This document shows, one piece after another, positions 21,032-52,424 of a DNA stretch of 64,000 nt. The notes under the pieces were generated by a model. The model had not been told where the DNA came from. It did no database searches and saw nothing but the letters and a program-made list of their open reading frames with translations. The number at the start of each line of letters is the position of its first letter. Position 1 is the first letter of the stretch. This DNA is from Antedon mediterranea (lineage: Eukaryota; Echinodermata; Crinoidea; Comatulida; Antedonidae). The position numbers and the translations under genes were made by a program. The stretch covers positions 14,126,932 to 14,190,931 of the forward strand of contig NC_092679.1 in assembly GCF_964355755.1 (NCBI RefSeq). The letters run 5' to 3'.

Positions 21032-24000
21032 TTACCTATGAGCATCTGAATCATCTCCTGGGCAGTTGGTTGATAAGTCTTCTCTATCTATAAATCAAGA
21101 ACAGGTTACATATACATTACCCAAAGCCAGCATTGCTACTAAACGTTTTATTTGTTTATTTTTATCTTTTAAATGATCAAAATGGAAGTTTCTTAAAGCT
21201 ATCAAACTAGTTTGACCAAAAAGTATGATGTGCCCAAATATGGTAGTGATATGACGTCATCGTGCCCGTATATGGGCACATCACATTTTTTTGTCACATA
21301 AAGTTTGATAGTGTAGACAGCTTTAAAGATGTGTTCTTCATTTTTTTTCCTGTTTTTTTTTTACAGAAGTGATGAACTTTATGAAAACTACAAAATTAGC
21401 TATTCAATTTTGGGGATAATACATATTGAATGTTTACACTGTTAATATCATTGTGCACATGTGTAAATGGCACAACTTGACTTAATCAATGTTAAGTTTG
21501 GAACTATTATTCTCAAGGCATTATGTTGCAATTTACACCTGGTGCAACATAGAAACATTTTTAGACAATGGCCATTCATATTTGCAGTATGCTATTTTAA
21601 ACGATAAACAAAATGATCAAATCTGACTTTTAGAATCACTGTATAACCGAATATGCACTTTTACTGCTTGGATTAGGCTGGCAAAGACATATACAGTATA
21701 TAATATAGATATATCAGATATTTTTTGTTTACATAGAGTAGTAAACTTACCATTAAATGATGTTCCACACCATATACAGTAAAAGTGTTTTGTTCTTAAA
21801 TATCTGGTAATGTCATCTAATCGTTCTTGAATCTAAACAAAAATTAATCAAGTGAGTAAGTAATAGCCAATGATGTCGGACTGCAATGCATGTTAAATTC
21901 CAAGTTATATGTACTGTGTGCCTGAATTTTAGTCACAATTCTTTATTGGAAAACATGTCATAATTTTTGTCATCAAGTAACTCAACCAAACCAGCTTCCA
22001 TTTATTGAAATATCTATAGAATGTCTTTTACTCCTTCATGTTTTTATGGAAATACTAGGAAAAGATAGGAACAACTGGCATCAATTGGGAGAGACCTATG
22101 CCCAGCAGTTGGACGATATGAGCTGAAGAAGATTGTTCGACATTTAACAAATGTAATTTGATTGTAATCTTGTTAATTAATGAACTAGTATGTTGAGGCT
22201 AAACATTACTGTCTCTTCATGAAAACACAAAATTTATTTCATGTGCGTAGTGTTTGTAGACACAAAAGTGTCACTTTGTGGCATAGCCAACGATTAACTA
22301 CTATAATACAAAGTAATAATCATCTAAACCAAAATACCAACCGGTATATCATCTCCAACATCTTTTTGTGCTTCTTCTTCTTCACTGCCTTCATCTTCTC
22401 CATCAACATCATCATCGTCTTCATCCTCGTCTGTTTTTGGCCTCAAGTGTTTGGGCCAGTACCATAGAACAACAGGTTCTTCAACATCCTAAACAAAAAT
22501 AAAACTGTTATTCTGCAATACCTAGCCAGCCTAGGCTAGCTGTAGTAAACACACTGAGCCATAAGGTCACACTGCGTGCCACCAATTCTTATTGCCATTT
22601 CACAACACTCTCAACAAACTATGAATTACTATAGAGGTTTCTGTACAGAAACATGTTATAATGCAAAACATACGGTACAGTGAGGTATTAAAACTTAAGT
22701 CATAATATCTTAATTTCTACAACCCAAATAAACATTAACAATCAAAATATTCTTTTTCTTTGGCTCAGACACCGACAAATTCAGGTACTGTATATATGCT
22801 ATTATTTTCACGGTGGTTTAATTTTTGAGATTGGGAACCTTTATATTGACAATTACGTAGAAAACTAGCCACCGATTCAAAAGGGAAAACCCAGAAGCAA
22901 ATTTACACGCACTTATAACATCCACATCGTTATCATGAACACAAAGCTTCCGTCGTGTGTCAGTTTCACAGTGGAAGGTTTGTGATACAAAACAACTTTA
23001 AAAGATATAGAAACATTAATTTACTAGTACAGTAGGCCTACTTCCGTAAATGCGGGTGAAAGCCTACATAGACCTTCTCCTAATTAGGCTTAGTCTAGGT
23101 CGGTACGGTGGATGTTGAAACTACTGACACTGTATACGGCACCTTGACTAGACCTAGGCTGTCTATTTGACGAAAAAGTTCAAGGTATGTTAGGCTTAGG
23201 CTAGAATATACAGTAACTTTTAACTAAAATGGCATCCGTAAAAATATAAACACGCAAAAACGTTCCAGCTGGTGATTTTTTTTTTTTTACCATATTTAAT
23301 GAGAGTGATCCATCCAGCACTTGCTGATCATTTGGGACCCTCAGGTAAGGCAATGAGAGTAAAGCATCTTGCCTAATGATGCAATTAGTATGGTAGAGAT
23401 AACCTTGAATCCTTGCCTATCACATGCTAGTCTGATATTATCATTACACCATCACTTTCCGGTATACTGTATACAGCATCCGCCGCTATTTCTAAACGGT
23501 GTCCCAACCCGAATGCAACCGGGCCTAACGTTGCTTAACTTTGGTAATCTGACGAGAACCGGTGTTTCAACGCAGTATGGCCGTATAAAACATATATATA
23601 TATATATAATAGACCCAGAGACTGAAATCCCGTCAGTTTCACTTACATGTGTGCGATCCAGTTGCTCACAGACATTCTGGCTCTTATAGAAGTCCTTTTC
23701 TACTTCTTTGTTCACCCGTTTTTCTCGTACACGCTGAAGGAATTCACCTTTACTTCTTTCTTGGTTTTGCATTCTATTCTTTCGCATCTGTTCTCGAAAT
23801 AACTCAACATCTTGTTTTTGTTTCTTCATTTGTGTTTCTCTGCCTAGTCCTCCTCTACCTATAAAATTAATAAATAAAAATTATTTTATCTTGCCTGTGT
23901 ATTTAAATGTGTAGTGTAAATTAAATGTAGGGTTTAAAACATCTGATAATATTTGATTTATTTCAAAATTGTACAAGTACAAATACAGATAAAAATGAAC

Positions 24001-26898: not shown

Positions 26899-29800
26899 AT
26901 GGCACTTCAGTTCAAACTTCCTGGTATTAATGTACGGTACATAAGAGCTGATAACATGCTTTATAAGGTGATTATCACAATGACGTGTGAGGTACCGTGT
27001 GACCATGAAGTGTTTCACAATGAAGTAGAAGATTTGCTGCGGGCAGTTATTGCAATGGCAAACTTGTACCCCATCAAAAGTGATCATCTGTTAGCTGTGC
27101 CGTGTAAGTATAGTATCCGATCATTATAAAGCTTATTGCTAAGAATTCTTGCCTGAAAGGGAAAGATGTGAGAATTTTAGCCTTTTTTTACAGTATATTT
27201 CTTTTTTTCCTAAAATAGAAGGTAAAACTTTACTTAGTTATTATTTATTAACTATTCATATATTCCTAACAAAAACATCCTTTCTTTCCCTTACGAATGA
27301 GTATGAATTATATTCTCTCCGGTGCTAATTCTTTGATACAGTGTCACATGTGATGCCTGTATCATAACTTTTACAGCCTATACATCATGTGATTCATATG
27401 TGATGCTGTATTGCCAAATTTGCCTATGATATTGGGCACATAATGTGGAGATACTGTACAGAGAATCGTGTATGTTATATTGTATGTAAACTGTGTTATT
27501 ATTAATCTATATTTTCTCATTGCAGCAATAAAGCCATGGTCTCCAAAGAATAAAAATCTTACAAAGTTTTCCAAAAACAAGAACTTGTTATACTGCCATG
27601 ATTTTGTTTATAAAATTAGGTTGAGAAAACTGGTGCCTCTTGTCACTCACTTACCAACAAAAAGACAGGTATGTAAAAAGAATCTCTTACTAAATATTAT
27701 CAATATACAGGCAAATTAACTCTAACTTATAAAAGTCTGTTTTTAACTAAGCAAATTAATTTATTCACGCAATTAAAAAGCATCAGTTTAACACAAAGCA
27801 ATACAAAAAAAATGTGTAATCAGTCACAACTCGGTATATGCTCAATTTGCATGAATAGATTTCCCAGTAGGGGAAAACTTTAAACCCTTTTCACACAAAA
27901 ATGTTAATATTTAACTAACATCAAAAAGCAGGTAAAATTTTTAATATTCAATAGCACAATTTTGTTATAGTTTTATCAGTGAGTGTTAAATACTGTAGTA
28001 TGATTGACAAGTATGCGTCAGTCAATATATAAGTACATTTACACCCTCTATTGGCACTTAAATTAATTAATCCACTTACTTAATATAATACTGTACTGTA
28101 TCCGTGTTTAAGCTTTGGAATAATTGATTCATTCAAGTTTATGAGCTTGAGTAGATTTATATCTGATTGATCATCTAAAATAGAATATTCATTTTTAGAT
28201 GGAAATTTAAATAAAAATATTTGTTATTTTATATAATTCAACATTTGTTTTTGATAAATAATATTGTAGAATATATATGTTATGCGCGATTTGAACGATT
28301 TGCGCAATTTAAAATTGCGCAAAAAAATCCTTGCGCAATTTGAAATTGCGCAAAGAATTCTTGCGCAATTTAAAATTGCGCAAGGATTTTTTTGCGCAAT
28401 TTTAAATTGCGCAATCAACTTGCGCAATTTCAAATTGCGCAAGAAAATCTTTGCGCAATTTTAAATTGCGCTGCACAATTTGTAAATTGCGCAAGATAGT
28501 TCTTGCGCAATATGACACCTTTGCGCAATTTGAAAACGAACTGTAAATTTTCCCATACATGGCTAGGCCTAGGCAGAGGAGTTTAAAATTTAGTATTTTA
28601 TTATATAAATAAGACCATTTCAATGAAGATAATGTTTAATACTCACTTTTTAAGTTTTTAATATTAGTTTAATAAGCTAGGCCATGTAACCTAGTCAGTA
28701 TCAGTAGTCCAGACCCTAGCTAGGCTAGAGTAGTATAGCCGACCGCCCGCGCCGCGCCCGCCTGGTGGAACACCACCGCTTTCGTTTTCCTTCGTCGGTT
28801 CTTCGACGGTATGCTAACTTATAACAATATTTGCACTATTAAAATAAGGAAATGCGATATTTATCTTTAATTTTGAATCATTCTTAGAAATTACTATATA
28901 AATATGGGTGTGCATGATTTCACAATCTGTCGAAAAACCTTGCGCAATTTGCAGATTACTTGCGCAATTTAATACGTTGCTTGCGCAATTTGAAACACAT
29001 GTTTCAATTCAAATTGCGCAAGGATTTTTTTTGCGCAATTTCAAATTGCGCAAATCGTTCAAATCGCGCATAACATATACACATCAAAGTGTATGTAAAA
29101 ACCAAGATCATACTTTAAGGGATCATTTCTATAATGTGTTTCACGGAGAAATGAATAAAGTTGATCAAATCGCACACCCACGAGGATGAGTAAGTATTCT
29201 CTTCTGAGCGTGAAGCAGAGCTTGAGAATTCCATCTGGAATGACCTTGCTCATTGATGACTGTTCGACCAAGACTTTGGTCTTGGAAGGATGGAGAGAAT
29301 GCAATCTGAGTGGTTCCAAATATGTTTTTTTAATAAAACGGAAGAAATATTCAGAAACTGTTGACATACACAAAATAAAATTTTAAAATTATTATTATTT
29401 TTGTCTGGATAATGAACAAATGTGTATGTGTAGCATTGAATATATTAACAAGCCTTCAGTTGTACTGTAGGTTTCTAGTATATTATAAACTCATTTTACA
29501 CAGAAAATGTTACAACTTGCTTGATATCCTCACACATATTATCTACAAATATCAGATATAAAAATATTTCAATAGTTCACCTTTATTGTATTATTATTAT
29601 TATTTTTTTTTTTTGCTTATTTCCAAACATGTTCAACTGTAGTAAGATTGACAAGTTCAATAGTTAGTATGATTTAAGTCAAAATCTCAGTGAACTCATC
29701 CCCTCTATTGGCTCTGAAATTAATTATTCCACGAATTTTAATATCATTTGTTTAAATTATTGTTTAATTATTTTCAGTTCCTCCATGTTTCAATTTGAGT

Positions 29801-32800
29801 CAATCTGTATCTGGTAGGTCATCTAAAGTAGAAATTTCATTTTCAGATGGAAATTATTGCAAAGAAATGTTTAAATAAAAATATTTGTTATTTTGTACAA
29901 TTCAACATTTGTTTTTGATAAATAATATTGCAGAATATATACACATCAAAGTCTATGTAAAAACCAAGATCATACTTTAAGGGATCATTTCTATAGTTTG
30001 TTTCACGGAGAAACGAATAAAGTTGATCAAATCGCAAACCCACGAGGATGAGTGTAAGTATTCTCTTCTGAGCGTGAAGCAGAGCTTGAGAATTCCATCT
30101 GGAATGACCTTGCTCATTGATGACCGTTCCACCAAGATTTTGGTCTTGGAAGGATGGAGAGAATGCAATCTGAGTGGTTGCAAATATGTTTTTTAATAAA
30201 ATGGAAGAAATATTCAGAAACTGTTGACATACACAAAATAAAATTTTAAAATTATTATTATTTTTGTCTGGATAATGAACAAATGTGTATGTGTAGCATT
30301 GAATATATTAACAAGCCTTCAGTTGTACTGTAGGTTTCTAATATATTATAAACTCATTTTACACAGAAAATGTTACAACTTGCTTGATATCCTCACACAT
30401 ATTATCTACAAATATCAGATATTAAAAATTTCAATAGTCCACCTTTCTTATATTATTATTATTTTTTGTTGTTGCTTATTTCCAAACATGTTCAACTGTA
30501 ATAAGATTGACATGTTGAATAGTTAGTATGATTAATTAAGTCAATATCTCAGTGCACTCATCCCCTCTATTGGCTCTGAAATTACTTATTCCACTAATTT
30601 TAATATCATTTGTTTAAAGTATGGCTTAATTAATTCCAGTTCCTCCATGTATCAATTTGAATAAATTTGTATCTGGTAGGTCATCTAAAGTAGAATATTC
30701 TTGAAAATTATTTTATAACAATGTCTCAATAAAAAATATTTGTTATTTTGTACAATTCAACATTTGTTTTTGATAAATAATATTGCAGAATATATACACA
30801 TCAAAGTCTATGTAAAAACCAAGATCATACTTTAAGGGATCATTTCTATAGTTTGTTTCACGGAGAAACGAATAAAGTTGGTCAAATCGCTAACCCACGA
30901 GGACGAGTGTAAGTATTCTCTTCTGAGCGTGAAGCAGAGCTTGAGAATTCCATCTGGAATGACCTTGCTGATTGATGACCGTTCCACCAAGACTTTGGTC
31001 TTGGGAGGATGGAGAGAATGCAATCTGAGTGGTTGCAAATTTGTTTTTTAACAAAAGGAAAAAAATATTCAGAACTGTTTACAAACACACAAACAAATCA
31101 TTTTAAAATTATAATTTTTTTGCTATAATATAATGAATATATGTATAAACAGTCACATTGCATTGAATATATTTCCAAGCCTTTAGTTGTAGGGTTCTAA
31201 CAGATTGTAAACACAGTTCACACAGAAAATGGTACAACTTGCTTGATATTCTGAAACATATTATTATCTGCAAATATCAGATAAATAAATATTTCAAATT
31301 CAATAGTCCACCATTATTGTATTTTTAAAATATTTTTTTTTTATTTCCAAACATGTTCAACTGTAGTAAGACAAGTTGAATAGTTAGTATGATTAAGTCA
31401 ATATCTCAGTGCACTCATCCCCTCTATTGGCTGTGAAATTAATTATTCCACTAATTTTAATATCATTTATTCAAATTATGGTTTAATTATTTTCAGTTCC
31501 TCCATGTTTCAATTTGAGTAAATTTGTATCTGGTGGGTCATCTAAAGTAGAATTTTCACATGAAAATTATTGCATAACAATGTCTCAATAAAAATATTTG
31601 TTATTTTATATAATTCAACATTTGTTTTTGATAAATAATATTGCAGAATATATACACATCAAAGTCTATGTAAAAACCAAGATCATACTTTAAGGGATCA
31701 TGTCTATAGTTTGTTTCACAGAGAAACGAATAAAGTTGATCAAATCGCAAACCCACAAGGACGAGTGTAAGTATTCTCTTCTGAGTGTGAAGCAGAGCTT
31801 GAGAATTCCACCTGGAGTGACCTTGCTCATTGATGACCGTTCCACCATGACTTTGGTCTTGGAAGGATGGAGAGAATGCAATCTGAGTGGTTGCAAATAT
31901 GCTTTTTAATAAAACGGAAGAAATATTCAGAAACTGTTGGCATTCACAAAATCAATTTTAAAATTGTTATTATTTTTGTCTGGATAATGAACAAATGTGT
32001 ATGTGTAGCATTGAATATATTAACAAGCCTTCAGTTGTACTGTAGGTTTTTAATATATTATAAACTTATTTTACACAGAAAATGTTACAACTTGCTTGAT
32101 ATCCTCACACATATTATCTACAAATATCAGATATAAAAATATTTCAATAGTCCACCTTTTTTTATTATTAATATTATTTATTTTTTTTGTTGCTTATTTC
32201 CAAACATGTTCAACTGTAGTAATTTTGACAAGTTCAATAGTTAGTATGATTAAGTCCATATCTCAGTGCACTCATCCCCTCTATTGGCTCTGAAATTAAT
32301 GATTCCACGAATTTTAATATCATTTGTTTAAATTATTGTTTAATTATTTTCAGTTCCTCCATGTTTCAATTTGAGTCAATCTGTATCTGGTAGGTCATCT
32401 AAAGTAGAATATTCATTTACAGATGAAAATTATTTTATAACGATGTCTCAATAAAAATATTTGTTATTTTGTACAATTCAACATTTGTTTTTGATAAATA
32501 ATATTGTAGAATATATACACATCAAAGTCTATGTAAAAACCAAGATCATACTTTAAGGGATCATTTCTATAGTTTGTTTCACGGAGAAACGAATAAAGTT
32601 GATCAAATTGCAAACCCATGAGGATGAGTGTAAGTATTCTCTTCTGAGCGTGAAGCAGAGCTTGAGAATTCCATCTGGAATAACCTTGCTCATTGATGAC
32701 CGTTCCACCAAGACTTTGGTCTTGGAAGGATGGAGAGAATGCAATCTGAGTGGTTGCAAATATGCTGTTTTTTTATTAAGGGAAAGAAATAGTGCTGAAA

Positions 32801-42367: not shown

Positions 42368-42799
42368 GTTGGATGTAATATTCCTAACACCTCATGTGAT
42401 TGGATGCATACTAAATGTCTGTGAACAGTATACCAATCAAAATCGTCGTGCTATAAGAGTAAAGTCCGTGTGTAAAAAGTACACCGATTTTTACCCAATT
42501 ATGTTTTAAGGTAAAACTTCGAAATTAAGCATTTTTGCAGATATTGGACGAAAAACGTTTTGAACAATATTACCATTTATTTTTGCACAATAAGTTGTAG
42601 TAATAAACCTTTTGAACATCGCCTAAAATACAAACAAAGCAGAAATAAAAGAAATACGGAAGTACACGCACACACAACACACACACATCAAATCAAGGGT
42701 CTATTTATGTTGTAAAGAGAAGGCGGTGGTCGGGTCCAAAAACTGAGAGACGTTTGCTGTTCCTCGTAGAGTTGGTCTACGAAATCGGGAATCATCAAA
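42368..42799. promoter_or_regulatory. Bidirectional promoter NENF / ACTR2
   Basis: 432 bp separate two divergent start codons. The interval has ATTGG and CCAAT motifs (near 42398 and 42431), a short CA tract (about 42666-42688) and no TATA box near either start. Confidence 0.65.
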
Positions 42800-45700
42800 A
42801 TGGACAGTGAAGGGAGGAAAATATTAGTATGCGATAATGGTACAGGTGTAAGTATTCTATTATTTCTCGTTATTTTTTGGACTAAAACTTTATTATTTGT
42901 ATGCAAAAATTAAAGATAACAATTGGATATAAATGCCGGAAGTGTCATCATGATTACTATACAAAAAGATAGCGCTTCAGAAATCAGGAAGTGATCTTTC
43001 TTCCGAGCCTAGCCTATCCTTATTATTATTTTTCCACCTAGGCATAGGGCCTAGTAGTAGGGTAATCAAATTTACATTTAATCCTGTACCAACTGGAGCC
43101 GCCCCCACGGTCAGCCTAGAGTAGCGTAGCTAGCGTACACACCGGCCAGCGTAATAACGACCGTTTCCTCCTGGCTGGCTGGACTGAAAGTCCTCTGCCG
43201 GCCTGGGTTTACAGGGCTAAGTTCCTACTCCTAGCTAGTAGTGCAGTACAGTACTCTAGTAGGCCGTAGAGGCCTAGCATCTTGCTGTAATGTGGCAGAC
43301 ATATAAACAAATATTAGTTATAAAATTGTTTTTTTGTGTGCAGAGTATGTTTTTATTATTGATCTCATTCAGATAACTTGGTTGACAACGACATGCATGA
43401 TGTTGATTATCAATTTATAACAATGATATGATGATAATTGTTTTTAAATATTATAAGGAAGTATAACATAGGCCTACTTGGCTAACCCTATCTCCCGCTA
43501 CTATATATGCCCAACTCAACCTAGATCTAAAGAACATGAAAAATTACCAGTATTAATATTACCATGGTTTTCATTAATTATTGGGTATAATAAAATAAAC
43601 GATATATACGATTTTTAGGGGCGTATCCAGGATGTTGTGAAGGAATTTTTTAACGGAAAACGAAAGGTGTAGAGCAACAAAAAAACTTACTCATACTGGC
43701 TACTGGATGTAATATACCTTCAGATTTTTACTGATGAGCCAGTTCCTGGGAATCTAAGATGGAGTCTAGAAATTTAGGGTGCAATATTCCCACAGATTTT
43801 CATTTGTTTGTATTCAATATTCTTTTGTTTTTCAGTTTGTTAAATGTGGATATGCAGGAAGCAACTTCCCTGCCTTTATTTTTCCTTCATTGGTTGGACG
43901 ACCAATCATACGGTCCACAGCAAAAGTCGGCAACATAGAAGTTAAGGTACTGTATTAGATTTTGTCATTCATAAATAAATATTAGGAAATTTCATGTTTA
44001 CCTGCTTTTTATCAGACTAGAGCTTTGAAAAACAACATGCTTTTAATTTTATGAAACTAGCTTATAATTCATAAAAATGATATTCATTTAAAATTTCTAT
44101 TAATCGGCTAAGCAATTGTAGAAATTGTATTAAAACTGGAACTTTCTAACGTAAAAAGATAATTTTTATAATATAAAACATTTATTTTTTGCAAAGCTTA
44201 ACTTATACTGCAAATTTTTTATCATCTTTAATTGCAGTTTGCTTGCAAAAGGATAGTATTTCTAAAGTTATACAATTGTAACCATCATAATGCTTTTACT
44301 GCCAATCCTATCCTATATTAAATCAAAAGTGGTTAAACATTCAAGTAGCATTTGTCGAGCATGGTGACAGTTATTAAGCCCATATTCAGTATTTTTATAA
44401 AGGAGTTTATTTTTCCACAATAGGGGACAAATCGAACTGGCCCTAATATTTACCATTATCATACTGAGCCTGGATTCCGGAGCTGGTTGCTAGATAAAAA
44501 AAAATGGGTGTAGTGTTTTAAGAATAAAAATTCACATTAAGTGGATTGGATTCTGTATAAAATCATATACTTACATGTGAACACAACTTCAGGTATGGAT
44601 TAAATCCAGGCTCTGTCAGTGTGAACAAGTTGTTAACATAGTTAATCTAAATCTCTTTTCATGGACTGAATACAAACATCTATAATCAGAAAACCAGTTT
44701 GTTTCAAGATTGAAAAGAGGACATTATTTTCATATGTTTACATTTACATGCTTAAAGACTGTTTATCAGTGGAAATTTCATAACTATCATTTATTTTGCT
44801 TTTTCTTTCTTTTGTTTTGTTTTTAATCCCTTACTTCATTTGTTCCATTGCAAAGTACAGAAGGTAGGCACACATTCTCAAACTCAACTCATTTTATAAT
44901 TCTTCCATTTTTAGCTTTACAGTGTTGTTTTTCATGTGCAATGATGCGTGACCTATCTAAAGCAATGTTGATGTGAATTTAAAATAGTACATACATTTCT
45001 GTTGTGAATCCCAATTTTCTTCCTTCAAACACAATTTAATCTTTAATTTGAGTGAGGAGAAGGGGTGGAAATAAATGAGCATTTTTACCACCAATAACAA
45101 ATATAACTAGATTTAATTCGTCACTATGACGAATTATAGGTTATATGCATTGATTTAAATAAAGAGAATTGATTTTTTAAAGATATATTGATTGATTGTT
45201 TTTCTCAGAATCTTTAATTATTTATAATATATGATAGGACCTTGCTAGCGCGAATACAATAGCCGGTATCACAATCCGATCAAAGATCCCTCTGCGTATA
45301 ATGTCATAAACCACATTTGTTGTTACATATATTAATAAAGACATAAGTTACTTTTTATCTAGATTTCATTATAAATCATGTGTATAATCTATACACTAAG
45401 AAATAAACTTGAACAAACAATACAGATAATAAAAAAAAAATCTTATTTCGTTTCCCAAGGTGAGACTCGATCTCGGTACCTTGAATGCCATAGACACGAG
45501 CACAGACCATCGAGCCATACACAACTGACTAAAGTTATGGAAAGATTCCTCCGTGTATTTACTATGCAGTAACCACTTTGGTGCAGATAGATTATTACAT
45601 ACCGCAATGAATTATAATGTTTTACTATGATGACATCTTTAAAAATTTAAAAAAAATGATGCACTGTCAAACTATATACTTTTAACTTTAATATTTGAAC

Positions 45701-48700
45701 TTCTTAAGGAAGAAAGTTAATGTTAAGTTTGTTATTTCGACCTAAGAAAATGTTATAATTTGATTGATTGTCATAATTAATTTTTTTTAATTTAATATGC
45801 CATTAATGATGACTTAATCAACTTTTTTTCTCCTAATTTCATAATAAATCATACATATGATACATACACTTCAAGAAAATGAAATAAAAAATAGGTGTTC
45901 CCGAGCATTCTAACGATATATATTAATTTTTAAATTTAGCATATTTTCACCATTTTGTTAACTTACACGTGCGTAGACTGTCACTTTAGACGTGCTCGTA
46001 TAACGCTGTTTGGCGTTGAAAAGTGAATAAAATATGATATTATTAAAGAAAGGTTATACAACAGTAATCGGACAAAAAAAGTGCGCATTAATGTTTGAGC
46101 GCGTGCAAAAATCTGCGCACTCATGGTAATTTTTTAAACGCTTAAAATTGCCAGAAACGTACTCTACTTTCATCGAAAATAAATTCTGACAATTTTTGAA
46201 CATTTTAAGCGCGTACGCATGCGTTGTATGCGCTACGCACGTAATTGTATTGCCATATGATGAAATATGACCTGAAATTTATGAGTACCAAATTTTGTTT
46301 AAAAATGATTCATGCTTGTGAAGATATGGTTACAAACGTGATTTCATTAAATCGCGCGTAGACCACGTAATGTTTGATTGCGCACCGTGAAAACATAACC
46401 ACATCGATTCCTGGCCATAAGGAATATACTCTGAAAAATTGACTTAGCTAGATGAAACTGATATCAAGATAATTCACGGACAAAATAGTGCTAAGGAAAG
46501 AATAAATAAACAAATAAAGATTCTGACCGAATCAAGAGGTTATATGCATGAATGCATATAACCTAATAAATCTATTTCCTGGAAATGTATGGCTATAATA
46601 AAAAAAATGTATATTTGTTTTTGTAATCATTTGGTCACAATTTAGATTTAAAAAAAAAGGTTTTTTAGATACACTTTGATGTGGCGAATGCAGTGTACTG
46701 TAAAGCATGCTTTATTTTGTACTGTTAATTTTGTGTGTCTGTGTGTTTGGCCAATTATTTGCATGCTTTTTGGTTTTTGTTTTTTGCTAATTTCCATTTA
46801 TCCTTTGATTGCTGTTCATTACTTTTTTACTGTCGATATTCTGTTTGTTCTTTTCTTAAACGCTATGAATTTTTTTTGTATTGACATCGTACTGTACGTT
46901 TATGTTATAGTTTGTCTCTTTTAATTCTAATTTATTTATACTGTAAATGGCATTCATACATTTACATACATTTTCCAACCAAATTGTGGTTCGTCTTGTC
47001 AGTTGGCAGTACATACTGCAGATTAAGGCACTACAAAATCTACTCTGTGTAACAGTACTGTAGAAGTGATTCCTTTTCGATTGTGTAATACAAAACCATT
47101 AAATTTAATAATAACTAGTATAATGAACATTTGTGCATGAAACGGGTTTGTTTTCGTAGCTCACTACAATAATTCCATTATTGAGATAGTCCCAAAAAAT
47201 AATAATAATAATAATTTTTTTTTAATTAAACTTCATTTAATAAGGGTGACTCAAAACAGCCGAAGCTGACATGCATGAGCCCTCAATACTTAAAAAACGG
47301 GAACAATACAAATACGAAAATACTAGAAAAAGGATAACAAACAGAGAGAAAAAGACCAATAAAAAAATATACAAATATATGGCATCATTGTGGTCTTCAT
47401 TACCATGCATTATGAGGAAGTTTTAATATTTATTCTCTGTAAACATACATTTTATTGCGAGGTTTCACTTGTCTGGGCTTAATTTCTAAAGTTTTTCAAT
47501 CGAAGTTGATTAATTTGAATGAAAAATTCTTTCTTTTTAAAGGATTTAATGGTTGGAGATGAAGCAAGTCAATTGAGGTCTATGCTTGAAGTGAATTACC
47601 CTATGGAAAATGGAATAGTTCGAAACTGGGACGACATGAAACATGTTTGGGATTACACATTTGGCGAAGAAAAACTAAACGTAGATCCCAAAACATGTAA
47701 ACTGTTACTTACGGAACCTCCAATGAATCCAGGAAAAAATCGAGAAAAAATGGTTGAGGTAAATCGTGATTTAAGTAAAAAGTTCATATACAGATATCAT
47801 TTGAATTGAGATGTTCTCTTTTTATATCATTCAGGTTATACTTTAAATTAAATCCAAAGGCAAATTAATACAAAAAATTACAATGCTGTGGGTGTTATTA
47901 GTGGCTGGATCTCAATGGAGATACAAAATAAAAAAAACAGACAAATGAGATCGACTACATACTGTATACTGTACCTCCTTGGCGGAGGTAAATAATCAAA
48001 AAGCTTAATCAACTTATATATGTTTTATTTTTTTACAGGTTATGTTTGAACAATATCAGTTTGCAGGCTTGTATATAGCTATTCAAGCTGTTCTGACACT
48101 CTATGCACAAGGTAAATATTTGTATAGCATTTTTCTTTATAACGTGTGTGGCACAGTTTGTTGGATGTTGGACTACTGATCATCGGTTCGAATCCAACGC
48201 TCGTTGTTTTGCTTGTATCATTAGGCAAGATACTTTACTTAAGTTTGCCTCTTGCCACCCAGGTTTACAAATGGGTACCTGGTAAGGTCAAGACGCAACT
48301 TTGTTTGCAACTAAAGGTGGATATATGACTAGACAACTGCAAGGAAGATACTTTTTGTATGATTATCAATGAAAATAAAATATACAATAAAACCTTTAAG
48401 AAGTTCTGAGCAGTTTCTCAAATGATTTTAAGAACACTTGATACAAATAACACATTACGCCTCTCTCCACCCAGGTGTTTGATCCAAAAATGGCCGGGTA
48501 ATAATATGTACAGCACAGGGGTCTTACAACATTAAGCGATTTATAAATCTAGAATATTGTTTTTAACACACCAATCTTTTGATTGGAGGATTTTGGGTCA
48601 CATGATCAATAACTACTCCATTGAAACAATGTTCTCAAGATTTAAGTCAAACATCACGATGACCTTTCACATTTCTCCTTTCACCTCATGAATTTATTTG

Positions 48701-51700
48701 TACCATGTTGCACTCATCAACATTCATTATTTGTATAATATACAATACAAAATGTCTTTATTATTGTCCAAGCAATGTCAATAACGGCACACATGAGTAG
48801 AAATAAAGTGGGTGATCGTTTGTTGCTAGCAGTAGAGCGCGTTCAGGATTGGAACACACAAACTCATTACTTTCCCACCCTACTCAGCACCCTCTCAAAT
48901 ATTATCCCCTTTCCTGATATTTTCACCTTTGACTAGAAAAATAACAGCATATAATATAAAGCATTACAGCTTAAAAATTGCAATGGGTCTTTTTAGTAAA
49001 TTTTATGAACTTAGACATATTTTAGACTTTTTGGTTTGTAAGTAATGACTCATATTAAGATCTAAAGATTCTGTTTCCTTTAAAAGATTAAAGTCTTTGA
49101 TTGGTGAAGATTTCTTGGATTAGTGATTTCAAATATGTACATACAGTATATAGTAACATTTAAAAATGGGCTACATTCACATCTACACAACAAGTTGATT
49201 TTAAGATATACCCCAAGATATTACCATTACCAAAATTACATCCTGCAATAGAGAAGTGGGTTTTCTTTATAAGATATGTTACAAATTGCGTAATCTAAAA
49301 TGTTGATTTGTTTGTGTTTTTCAGGTCTTTTGACGGGAGTTGTGATTGATTCTGGTGATGGTGTAACGCATATCTGTCCTGTTTATGAAGGCTTTGCTCT
49401 ACCTCATCTCACAAGGAGGTTGGACATTGCTGGCAGGGACATCACAAAATATCTTATAAAGGTAATGATGTATGATAGCCCACTTCACAACAGTACATGT
49501 TAGTGTTGTTGCATGCCCAAAAGAATTTAATGAGCAATTAGGTTATGCTAAAAATAATACTAATTACTTTTCATACCTGCAAAAAGTAACTTGTAACAAG
49601 TTGTAACCAGGTTTGCATAATGTGAAGACAATTTTGTGGAAAATCTCACAAGAGACCTATGTGAAACCTTGGGAGAAAAACTATCGATGAGAGGCATGTT
49701 TTTTGTTCCGAGATGTCCCGAGTCGTTCGTGAACAAGTGTATTGCCCTGGTATTAAACTGACCAATCATAGTAATCAATTTGCACTCAACTATGCTTTCT
49801 CCCGCATATGCGTGTATGAAAATGTGTAATATGAGATACATAATGATGTAAAACATGCAAGTCAATCATTGTTTTTACATCATGAAAACATTTTGGTAAA
49901 ATTAACTGCGTGAAAAATGCAAGAGCGAACAATGGTAAAAATCTTCCAATGACATTGAGTAAGGCTACCGTGGTTAAATTTACCATTTTTCAAGTCCAGT
50001 GCGAACAAGGCCTAAAGGTGGATATATAACTAGACAACTGCAAGGAAGATACTTTTTGTATGATTATTAATGAAAATAAAATATACAATAAATCCTTTAA
50101 GAAGTTCTGAGCAGTTTCTCAAATGATTTTAGGTACACTTGATAAAATAGCACATCACTAAAAACTACACCTTTTTCTAAACTGGACCAAGTGTCTGGTT
50201 TTAAGAGAGGTCACTGACAGATAGACCGACACAATGAAAAAGCTTACAATATATCATGCCAACTATCAAAGACTACATGATTCTTTATTAACAATACTAT
50301 TGTAGATATACAATTGTTAGTCTTTTTGGACTATACATGTGTGCAAAACATCTTTTGATGAATGTTTTTCACTTGGTATGCCCTGGTCCAGCCAGCCCCT
50401 CTCAGTACCTACTGGTTGACTTTAAAAGATGCATTGTAAGCCAATGCTGTGCATTGATCCTTAAAACTAATATCTTAATAATTTATTTTTCTTTATAGTT
50501 GCTTCTTTTACAAGGATATGCATTCAACCACTCAGCAGATTTCGAAACAGTCCGAATTATGAAAGAAAAATTGTGTTATGTTGGGTGAGTATAGATAAAC
50601 AATATGTGCAATTAATCCACAATTTATATATGTATGTATATAGGTATTGGGTAACAGAAGATTATTACAGAAAATGTGATATTTGAAAGGATAGCATGCA
50701 GATTTTAAGGGAAAAAAGATCTTTGTTTTTAAATATTTTCGATCAGTTGAATAATCAACTTTCAAAGAAATTTTGTTTATTGAAAAAGAAAGGAATGTTT
50801 TATTTGATTATTGAAATAATGTTTTTTATCAGGTACAATATTGAACAAGAACAGAAACTATCAAGAGAAACAACAGTCTTGGTTGAGAATTATACAGTAA
50901 GTATTGAAAACAAAATACTACCCAAATTAAAATCATTTTGTACCCAAAAAATGGCATCGGAAGACTTGATAAACCCTTTTCATTAAAATTATTTAATACC
51001 TTTTTGACTGCAAGGATGACACAGATTAGTTCTGATAACACTGAAGAAAATCATTTTTTCCTCTAAGAAGTTCTGAGCAGTCTAGATACAACAATTACAT
51101 ACATTAAAAATACAGATAATAATTTTCTCAAGCCATACCAAACAAGTTGGTGCTTGTTTTGTAAAGAAAAAGTACTTTTACAAGTAAATTGGAATACAGC
51201 ATGGGATTCATTCTACATAAAACAGCTTTGTTTTAGTTGAAATCGTAAACATTAAAATATAACATTGAATGGCTATATAAAAAGACATTTTGATTCCCAG
51301 CTTCCAGATGGGCGAGTCATAAAGATTGGAGGTCAGAGGTTTGAAGCACCAGAGGCCCTCTTCCAACCACACTTAATCAATATAGAGGGAGTTGGTATTG
51401 CGGAACTTCTGTTTAACACAATCCAAGCAGCAGATATTGATACACGATCAGAGTTCTATAAACACATTGTCCTATCTGGTGGATCAACAATGTACCCTGG
51501 TCTACCATCAAGGCTAGAGCGAGAGATAAAACAATTATATCTTGAACGAGTTCTTAAAGGCGACACTACAAAACTAGCGGTAAGTCTTGTTTATGATTTA
51601 GATAATATATATCAGACAATTTAAGGTTATTGAACCTGTATTTGTTATTAGGAATACTTTTTTGTTACAATAAATAAATGAAAGTATAAAAATATTTGTT

Positions 51701-52424
51701 AACTGCAAGGATGACTTCGTTTATCTGACATGAGTGAAGAAATCATTTTTCCTCTAAGAAGTACTGAGCAGAAAATATTCACATACTTTACTTAACTACA
51801 ACACAACTAAATAGTACTAAAGCCTGTTTTCCATGAGGTGTGAATTTATTTACGCTAATGTTCTTATGTCTTATTGTAATATTCGCTGAAGAGAAAATTT
51901 GAGAGAATTTGTTGCAGAAGGGAATTTTTAAATGGAAATATGAATAAGCATGCATTTAATAATAAAGTTATGGAAAACAGGCTTAACAGAGGTGTCAAGT
52001 CCATAGTCAGGATTTTTGCAGGGGAATTCTTTTTTTCCGCTGAACAAAAGATAGATTTAGGCATAGATATAAAGTAATTTGCCTTCTGGCTATGCAACAG
52101 TAGGATTGGCCAAAAAATGGTCATAAGCCTATTAGAAATTTTACTGATTTTCACATTTTTATTTTTGACTCAAAATACTTTTTAAAAATAACAAAATTAT
52201 ATGACATTTGTGCAATTTATGCAAGCCTTAAAATGTTAATTTTGTAATAATTTCAGAAATTCAAGATCAAAATTGAAGATCCACCTCGTCGTAAACACAT
52301 GGTTTTCCTTGGTGGCGCTGTTCTAGCTGATATCATGAAAGATAAACAAGACTTTTGGATAACAAGACAAGAATACGAAGAGAAAGGCCTGAAATGTTTA
52401 GAGTCGCATTCAGTGAAAGTATAA
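42800..52424 (+). CDS. ACTR2: Actin-related protein 2, Arp2/3 complex
   Basis: ARP2 is the actin-like subunit that, with ARP3, starts the daughter filament in the branching Arp2/3 complex. Nine exons: 42800-42847, 43836-43946, 47543-47758, 48039-48111, 49325-49461, 50499-50584, 50833-50896, 51301-51579, 52257-52424. Phases agree; 393 residues (human 394). Actin-fold nucleotide motifs are present: [15 protein letters not shown] (phosphate 1), [11 protein letters not shown] (phosphate 2) and [11 protein letters not shown] (adenosine region). LVGRPIIRS and LTEPPMNP are family-diagnostic. The C-terminus (LESHSVKV) differs from the vertebrate tail. Introns 4, 5, 7 and 8 each carry a U61-like C/D snoRNA. 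The first intron-exon border gives NGTG|F, as expected. Confidence 0.98.
45106..46575. repeat. Possible inverted-end element in ACTR2 intron 2 with tRNA-like insert
   Basis: GGTTATATGCATTGATTT at about 45139 faces GGTTATATGCATGAATGC at about 46538 (itself a palindrome, 46538-46563). TCAGAATCTTTAATTATTTAT-type sequence near 45207 is inverted near 46505. A perfect palindrome, AATTCGTCA/TGACGAATT, is at 45115-45135. Inside, 45445-45540 read on the minus strand has tRNA-like boxes (TGGCTCGATGG; ATCGAGTCTCACC). The boundaries are uncertain. Confidence 0.35.
47877..47945 (-). repeat. Penelope-like tail fragment, inverted
   Basis: GCTGGATCTCAATGGAGATA is the reverse complement of the tail at about 3930-3970. 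It is the same repeat without the hammerhead-like part, in ACTR2 intron 3. Confidence 0.55.
48140..48310 (+). repeat. tRNA-derived SINE, family A, best copy
   Basis: TGGCACAGTTTGTTGG (A-box region), GGACTACTGATCATCGGTTC and GGTTCGAATCC (B box) give the clearest tRNA-like head. CAAGATACTTTACTTAAG and AAATGGGTACCTGGTAAG follow. A further body segment (CTCTCCACCCAGGTG, GGGTAATAATATG) continues at 48461-48520, after an interruption that contains the snoRNA. Confidence 0.8.
48335..48415 (+). ncRNA. SNORD61: U61-like C/D snoRNA, ACTR2 intron 4
   Basis: Terminal stem AACTGC/GCAGTT. The box C position reads AGGAAGA (two changes from RUGAUGA), and box D is CTGA at 48406-48409. The sequence before box D, CCTTTAAGAAGTT, pairs with the conserved 18S sequence AACTTCTTAGAGG allowing one G-U. 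The weak box C suggests a diverged or failing copy. A near-identical copy is in intron 5. Confidence 0.62.
50036..50116 (+). ncRNA. SNORD61: U61-like C/D snoRNA, ACTR2 intron 5
   Basis: The intron 4 copy is duplicated here together with flanks (about 147 bp, 50012-50158, only a few differences). Stem AACTGC/GCAGTT, box C position AGGAAGA, guide CCTTTAAGAAGTT and box D CTGA at 50107-50110. Confidence 0.62.
51006..51082 (+). ncRNA. SNORD61: U61-like C/D snoRNA, ACTR2 intron 7
   Basis: Stem GACTGC/GCAGTC, box C AGGATGA (51013-51019, one change from RUGAUGA), a candidate D' CTGA inside GTTCTGATAAC, C' like TGAAGAA, guide CCTCTAAGAAGTT and box D CTGA at 51073-51076. The guide is fully complementary over 13 nt to the conserved 18S stretch AACTTCTTAGAGG. 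The fifth base upstream of box D pairs with the second U of AACUU, the site attributed to U61 (Um1442 in human). This is the best copy. Confidence 0.8.
51701..51773 (+). ncRNA. SNORD61: U61-like C/D snoRNA, ACTR2 intron 8
   Basis: Stem CTGC/GCAG, box C AGGATGA, D' CTGA (in TTATCTGACA), C' GTGAAGA, guide CCTCTAAGAAGTA with a single mismatch beside box D, and box D CTGA at 51764-51767. The D' side differs from the intron 7 copy. Confidence 0.75.

Follow-up and report, generated by a model that had tools for sequence, protein, structure and literature searches.

SNORD61-type snoRNA units in introns of two host genes, ACTR2 and CDC42BP, of the crinoid Antedon mediterranea

The window analysed here, a stretch of 64,000 nucleotides from the genome of the crinoid Antedon mediterranea, contains four short related units within the introns of one protein-coding gene, and the question that they raise is whether these are guide RNA genes of a known family and, if so, how they came to be multiplied in this host. 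The initial annotation had taken them as U61-like box C/D snoRNAs of 73–81 nt in introns 4, 5, 7 and 8 of ACTR2, and all four were found where it had placed them, in the same sense as the host. The gene spans approximately 42790–52424 on the + strand (coding exons 1–9); its exons and splice sites were located, and the predicted protein has an actin fold whose best PDB match is Arp2. Judged by this match, the host is certainly ACTR2. The intron numbers are also right, since the start of exon 3, at 47543, is preceded by exons 1 and 2 near 42.8 and 43.8 kb.

The U61 family is represented in Rfam by SNORD61 (RF00270, clan CL00067), with a curated gathering score of 43 bits. This score is exceeded by the units of intron 7 (51006–51082, + strand; 47.4 bits) and intron 8 (51701–51773, +; 47.8 bits), while those of intron 4 (48335–48415, +; 37.6 bits) and intron 5 (50036–50116, +; 39.5 bits) fall short of it, with E-values of 0.0064 and 0.0025, respectively, in an 8-kb search; the proposed identity as C/D snoRNAs of the U61 type is thereby upheld above the threshold for two of the ACTR2 units and just below it for the other two. 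When the genome was searched with the same model, two further copies appeared at C10:6873230-6873961, with 52.6 and 52.0 bits, above the gathering score and above all the ACTR2 units. They lie in the sense orientation in two adjacent introns of CDC42BP (MRCK), a gene identified by exons for the C1-PH part of the protein, about 7.3 Mb from ACTR2 on the same chromosome, and with the four of ACTR2 they bring the family to six copies, divided between two host genes. Thus, the local amplification within ACTR2 stands, but the family is not confined to this gene, and its two better-scoring copies had been missed. A local model (R1) was built from five units, those of introns 4 and 5 among them, with the second CDC42BP copy left out, and it recovered this copy at 67.9 bits (E 2e-11), which serves as an out-of-sample check; the E-values that it gives to its own five training members are no independent evidence. 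Beyond ACTR2 and CDC42BP, the Rfam model found no SNORD61 elsewhere in the genome, in which a copy could go unseen where the sequence is masked, and weak matches on C7 and C5 (29.1 and 28.1 bits) were discarded, as the local model gave only a partial guide match there.

The reading that we favor, with a probability of roughly 0.9, is that the ACTR2 units are intron-encoded box C/D SNORD61 (U61) genes guiding U1360 of the 18S rRNA, and that they belong to a six-copy family which would have arisen by intron-to-intron duplication together with at least one transfer between ACTR2 and CDC42BP. According to this proposal, the units would be expressed with the ACTR2 pre-mRNA, which would be spliced and the intron debranched; exonucleases would then trim the debranched intron down to the assembled C/D snoRNP; UCCUCUAAGAAGUU, the stretch ahead of box D, would pair with the 18S segment AACUUCUUAGAGG; and fibrillarin would 2′-O-methylate U1360, which corresponds to human Um1442.

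The segment that the guide targets is present in the 18S rRNA of Antedon mediterranea itself, and the target stretch AACTTCTTAGAGGGAC was located in the 18S genes of the same genome, so that the complementarity to the 18S of this species, whose absence the initial annotation had named as a refutation, is confirmed with 12–13 pairs. In units 1 and 2 the guide is CCTTTAAGAAGTT (48393–48405 and 50094–50106, both +), with 13 pairs including one G:U, and predicted duplex energies of −17.3 and −17.2 kcal/mol; in unit 3 it is CCTCTAAGAAGTT (51060–51072, +), with 13 Watson-Crick pairs and −21.1 kcal/mol; and in unit 4 it is CCTCTAAGAAGTA (51751–51763, +), with 12 Watson-Crick pairs, a mismatch beside box D, and −21.0 kcal/mol. 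The shared antisense element is therefore found in all four, but it is not uniform. In all six copies the pairing stops directly at box D or one base earlier, and U1360 faces the base five positions ahead of box D, as the box D+5 rule asks. A second guide was looked for at D′, and no D′-guided complementarity to rRNA common to the copies was found.

Around this guide are arranged the remaining elements of a C/D snoRNA. Box D is CUGA in all six copies (CTGA at 48406–48409 in unit 1, and at 50107–50110, 51073–51076 and 51764–51767 in units 2 to 4), and the CTGC/GCAG terminal stem, also seen in all four ACTR2 units as first described, extends throughout the family, with six pairs in most copies and four in the intron 8 unit. 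The outermost pair of this stem has undergone compensatory changes (G-C, A-U and U-A), although only five sequences were compared and the observed score is equalled or exceeded in 38 of 500 shuffles. The box C-like motifs are present, although in sequence and alignment all of them depart from RUGAUGA, which tells against the proposal: AGGATGA in units 3 (51013–51019, +) and 4 (51708–51714, +) departs once, and AGGAAGA in units 1 (48342–48348, +) and 2 (50043–50049, +) departs twice. Four of the six copies have RGGAUGA, whose single departure is at position 2, and as the G in this position is common to all the copies, it probably predates their spread. The fold z-scores of the units (−1.1 to −2.0) are in no case exceptional, as expected for C/D snoRNAs, and are not positive evidence.

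As C/D snoRNAs have little structure, single weak matches to them often arise by chance, and it might be thought that the four units are no more than accidental resemblances in AT-rich introns. This explanation can be taken as already refuted, its probability being negligible in view of the scores, the recurrence of the units and their constant sense orientation, as well as the motif counts. In the 7-kb region there are two occurrences of an exact 12-nt antisense to the 18S that ends 0–1 nt before CTGA, where simulated sequence gives an expectation of 0.0045, and the rest of the window has none on either strand; the units of introns 4 and 5 do not enter this count because of the G:U pair in their guide. 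The motif CCTYTAAGAAGTNCTGA, which joins guide and box D, has seven matches in 354 Mb, six of them in the snoRNA units (four in ACTR2 and two in CDC42BP), and its reversed control has none. The seventh match, at C9:20438395, was rejected, being inside a long open coding frame and lacking both box C and stem.

With regard to how the copies are related, identity between the intron 4 and intron 5 units reaches 98%, and they share a block of 136 nt (48311–48446 and 50012–50147, both +) with 96% identity that takes in their flanks; since this block (about 136–139 nt) is near-identical in the two introns and has only these two copies in 354 Mb, a local duplication is indicated. Outside the guide and stems most pairs of units are 77–84% identical, the guide being nearly unchanged. 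The intron 7 unit has 84% identity with its intron 8 neighbor and 90% with one of the CDC42BP copies, which are 92% identical to each other, so the copies in ACTR2 are not necessarily a single group, and a transfer between the hosts is likely to have happened at least once, although with only some 75 nt per unit no reliable tree can be drawn.

That the copies were spread by a mobile element, a snoRNA-bearing retroposon of the snoRTE or SINE-like type, has in its favor the presence of a SINE-like repeat that ends at about 48303, eight bases ahead of the intron 4 block. However, with the block present only twice and the guide motif in a snoRNA context only six times in the genome, this explanation is largely refuted by copy number, and it becomes very improbable when it is added that the SINE stands in many places without a snoRNA and that every copy of the unit is sense and confined to two genes. 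The repeat itself (48146–48303 of the window) looks tRNA-derived and is abundant: besides 1309 candidates at first look, at least 39 other copies were scored, with 80–86% identity.

Of the six copies, four are probably active, namely those of introns 7 and 8 and the two of CDC42BP; the copies of introns 4 and 5, whose box C is degenerate and whose guide has a G:U pair, may function weakly or be in decay. A stronger version, in which only introns 7 and 8 hold working SNORD61 genes within ACTR2 and the other two are decaying pseudogenes that were duplicated along with their flanks, is a serious contender, though somewhat short of even odds: it would account for the AGGAAGA box C, the Rfam scores below the gathering score, the duplex of −17 instead of −21 kcal/mol, and the non-snoRNA flanks inside the duplicated block, but both units have kept guide, box D and a terminal stem of six pairs, and their differences, of which the 81-nt unit has 2 and the remaining 55 nt of the block 4, are compatible with constraint without proving it. 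It is quite unlikely that the intron 4/5 pair is a functional sub-family of its own, its box C having been altered, so that ACTR2 and CDC42BP, both genes of the actin machinery, would in this lineage jointly control how strongly 18S U1360 is methylated.

The host itself raises a further question, in that chicken U61 lies in intron 2 of RBMX (PMC2653536). The proposal of a host switch together with local amplification is sustained insofar as the host differs from that of vertebrates and the copies are multiplied in ACTR2, while it overlooked CDC42BP as a host. The Pfam RBM1CTR model gave no match anywhere and is uninformative for the presence of RBMX, for which reason the search was made with an RRM. 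The exon most like RBMX, at 59% identity over 63 residues, belongs to a candidate orthologue, and within about 10 kb of it no SNORD61 was found, although a copy might lie hidden in masked sequence. A switch of host is thus plausible, but related genomes would be needed to set the ancestral host (RBMX or ACTR2/CDC42BP) and the direction of the switch; such genomes could also date the transfer between the two present hosts.

Compared with SNORD61 as known, the units agree in (i) the guide upstream of box D and its 18S target; (ii) the terminal stem and single-guide layout; and (iii) the intronic sense position, here in two broadly used genes. They differ in the hosts, in the number of copies, six in place of one, and in box C, whose family consensus AUGAUGA is here AGGAUGA or AGGAAGA. 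A difference that counts against the likeness is the distance to the 3′ splice site, typically about 70 nt in vertebrate C/D snoRNAs and 218 to 909 nt in these introns. The guide is also shared with snoR01 (RF01583), whose model gives introns 4 and 5 a score of 41.1 bits, a little higher than that of SNORD61 but under the snoR01 gathering score of 55. The methylated site, Um1442 in human and Um1381 in plants, is guided by U61 (PMC3511168), and in Dictyostelium by CD1 (PMC8817022). Yeast snR55 is not the counterpart of U61, as it guides the counterpart of Um1326 (PMC3511168, PMC8817022), and a search for the snR55 family found nothing.

The surprise that the initial annotation implied in this amplification is overstated, because C/D snoRNAs are described as giving rise by cis-duplication to paralogues that mostly stay within the introns of the same host (PMC2653536, PMC8178906). 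Known paralogues of this kind, such as U36 in RPL7A or those described in chicken (PMC2653536), likewise occupy several introns of one host, in sense and with a conserved guide; U61 is here found additionally in a second host gene. In Antedon mediterranea, SNORD36 has two copies within 0.7 kb in RPL7A and a third 0.5 Mb away. RPL7A is also the SNORD36 host in human. Three U14-like genes lie within 1.1 kb at C5:29416776-29417872 (62.5 to 60.7 bits, slightly below the gathering score of 64). Given the usual cis-duplication and these other multi-copy families, SNORD61 is one more ordinary case, which changes no principle and in which the two-host, six-copy layout is a detail. What it adds is a clean example of an ancient guide RNA that appears to have changed host and multiplied within introns, and it fits the “constrained drift” model of snoRNA mobility (PMC3511168); the same paper traces the SNORD61 clan to the last eukaryotic common ancestor, with continued movement from host to host.

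The same window has other RNA genes. On the + strand at 29104–32754 lies a tandem array of five U3 snoRNA genes (128.6 to 148.6 bits) that recur about every 860 nt, the repeats reaching into the spacers, and on the − strand at 23468–23588 there is a somewhat divergent 5S rRNA-like match (60.3 bits). Elsewhere in the genome, the smallest contig (C18:1-10000) is a long tandem repeat with half of its letters masked, whose minus strand is open in several frames and carries a repeated GTTRNYSELL-like peptide.
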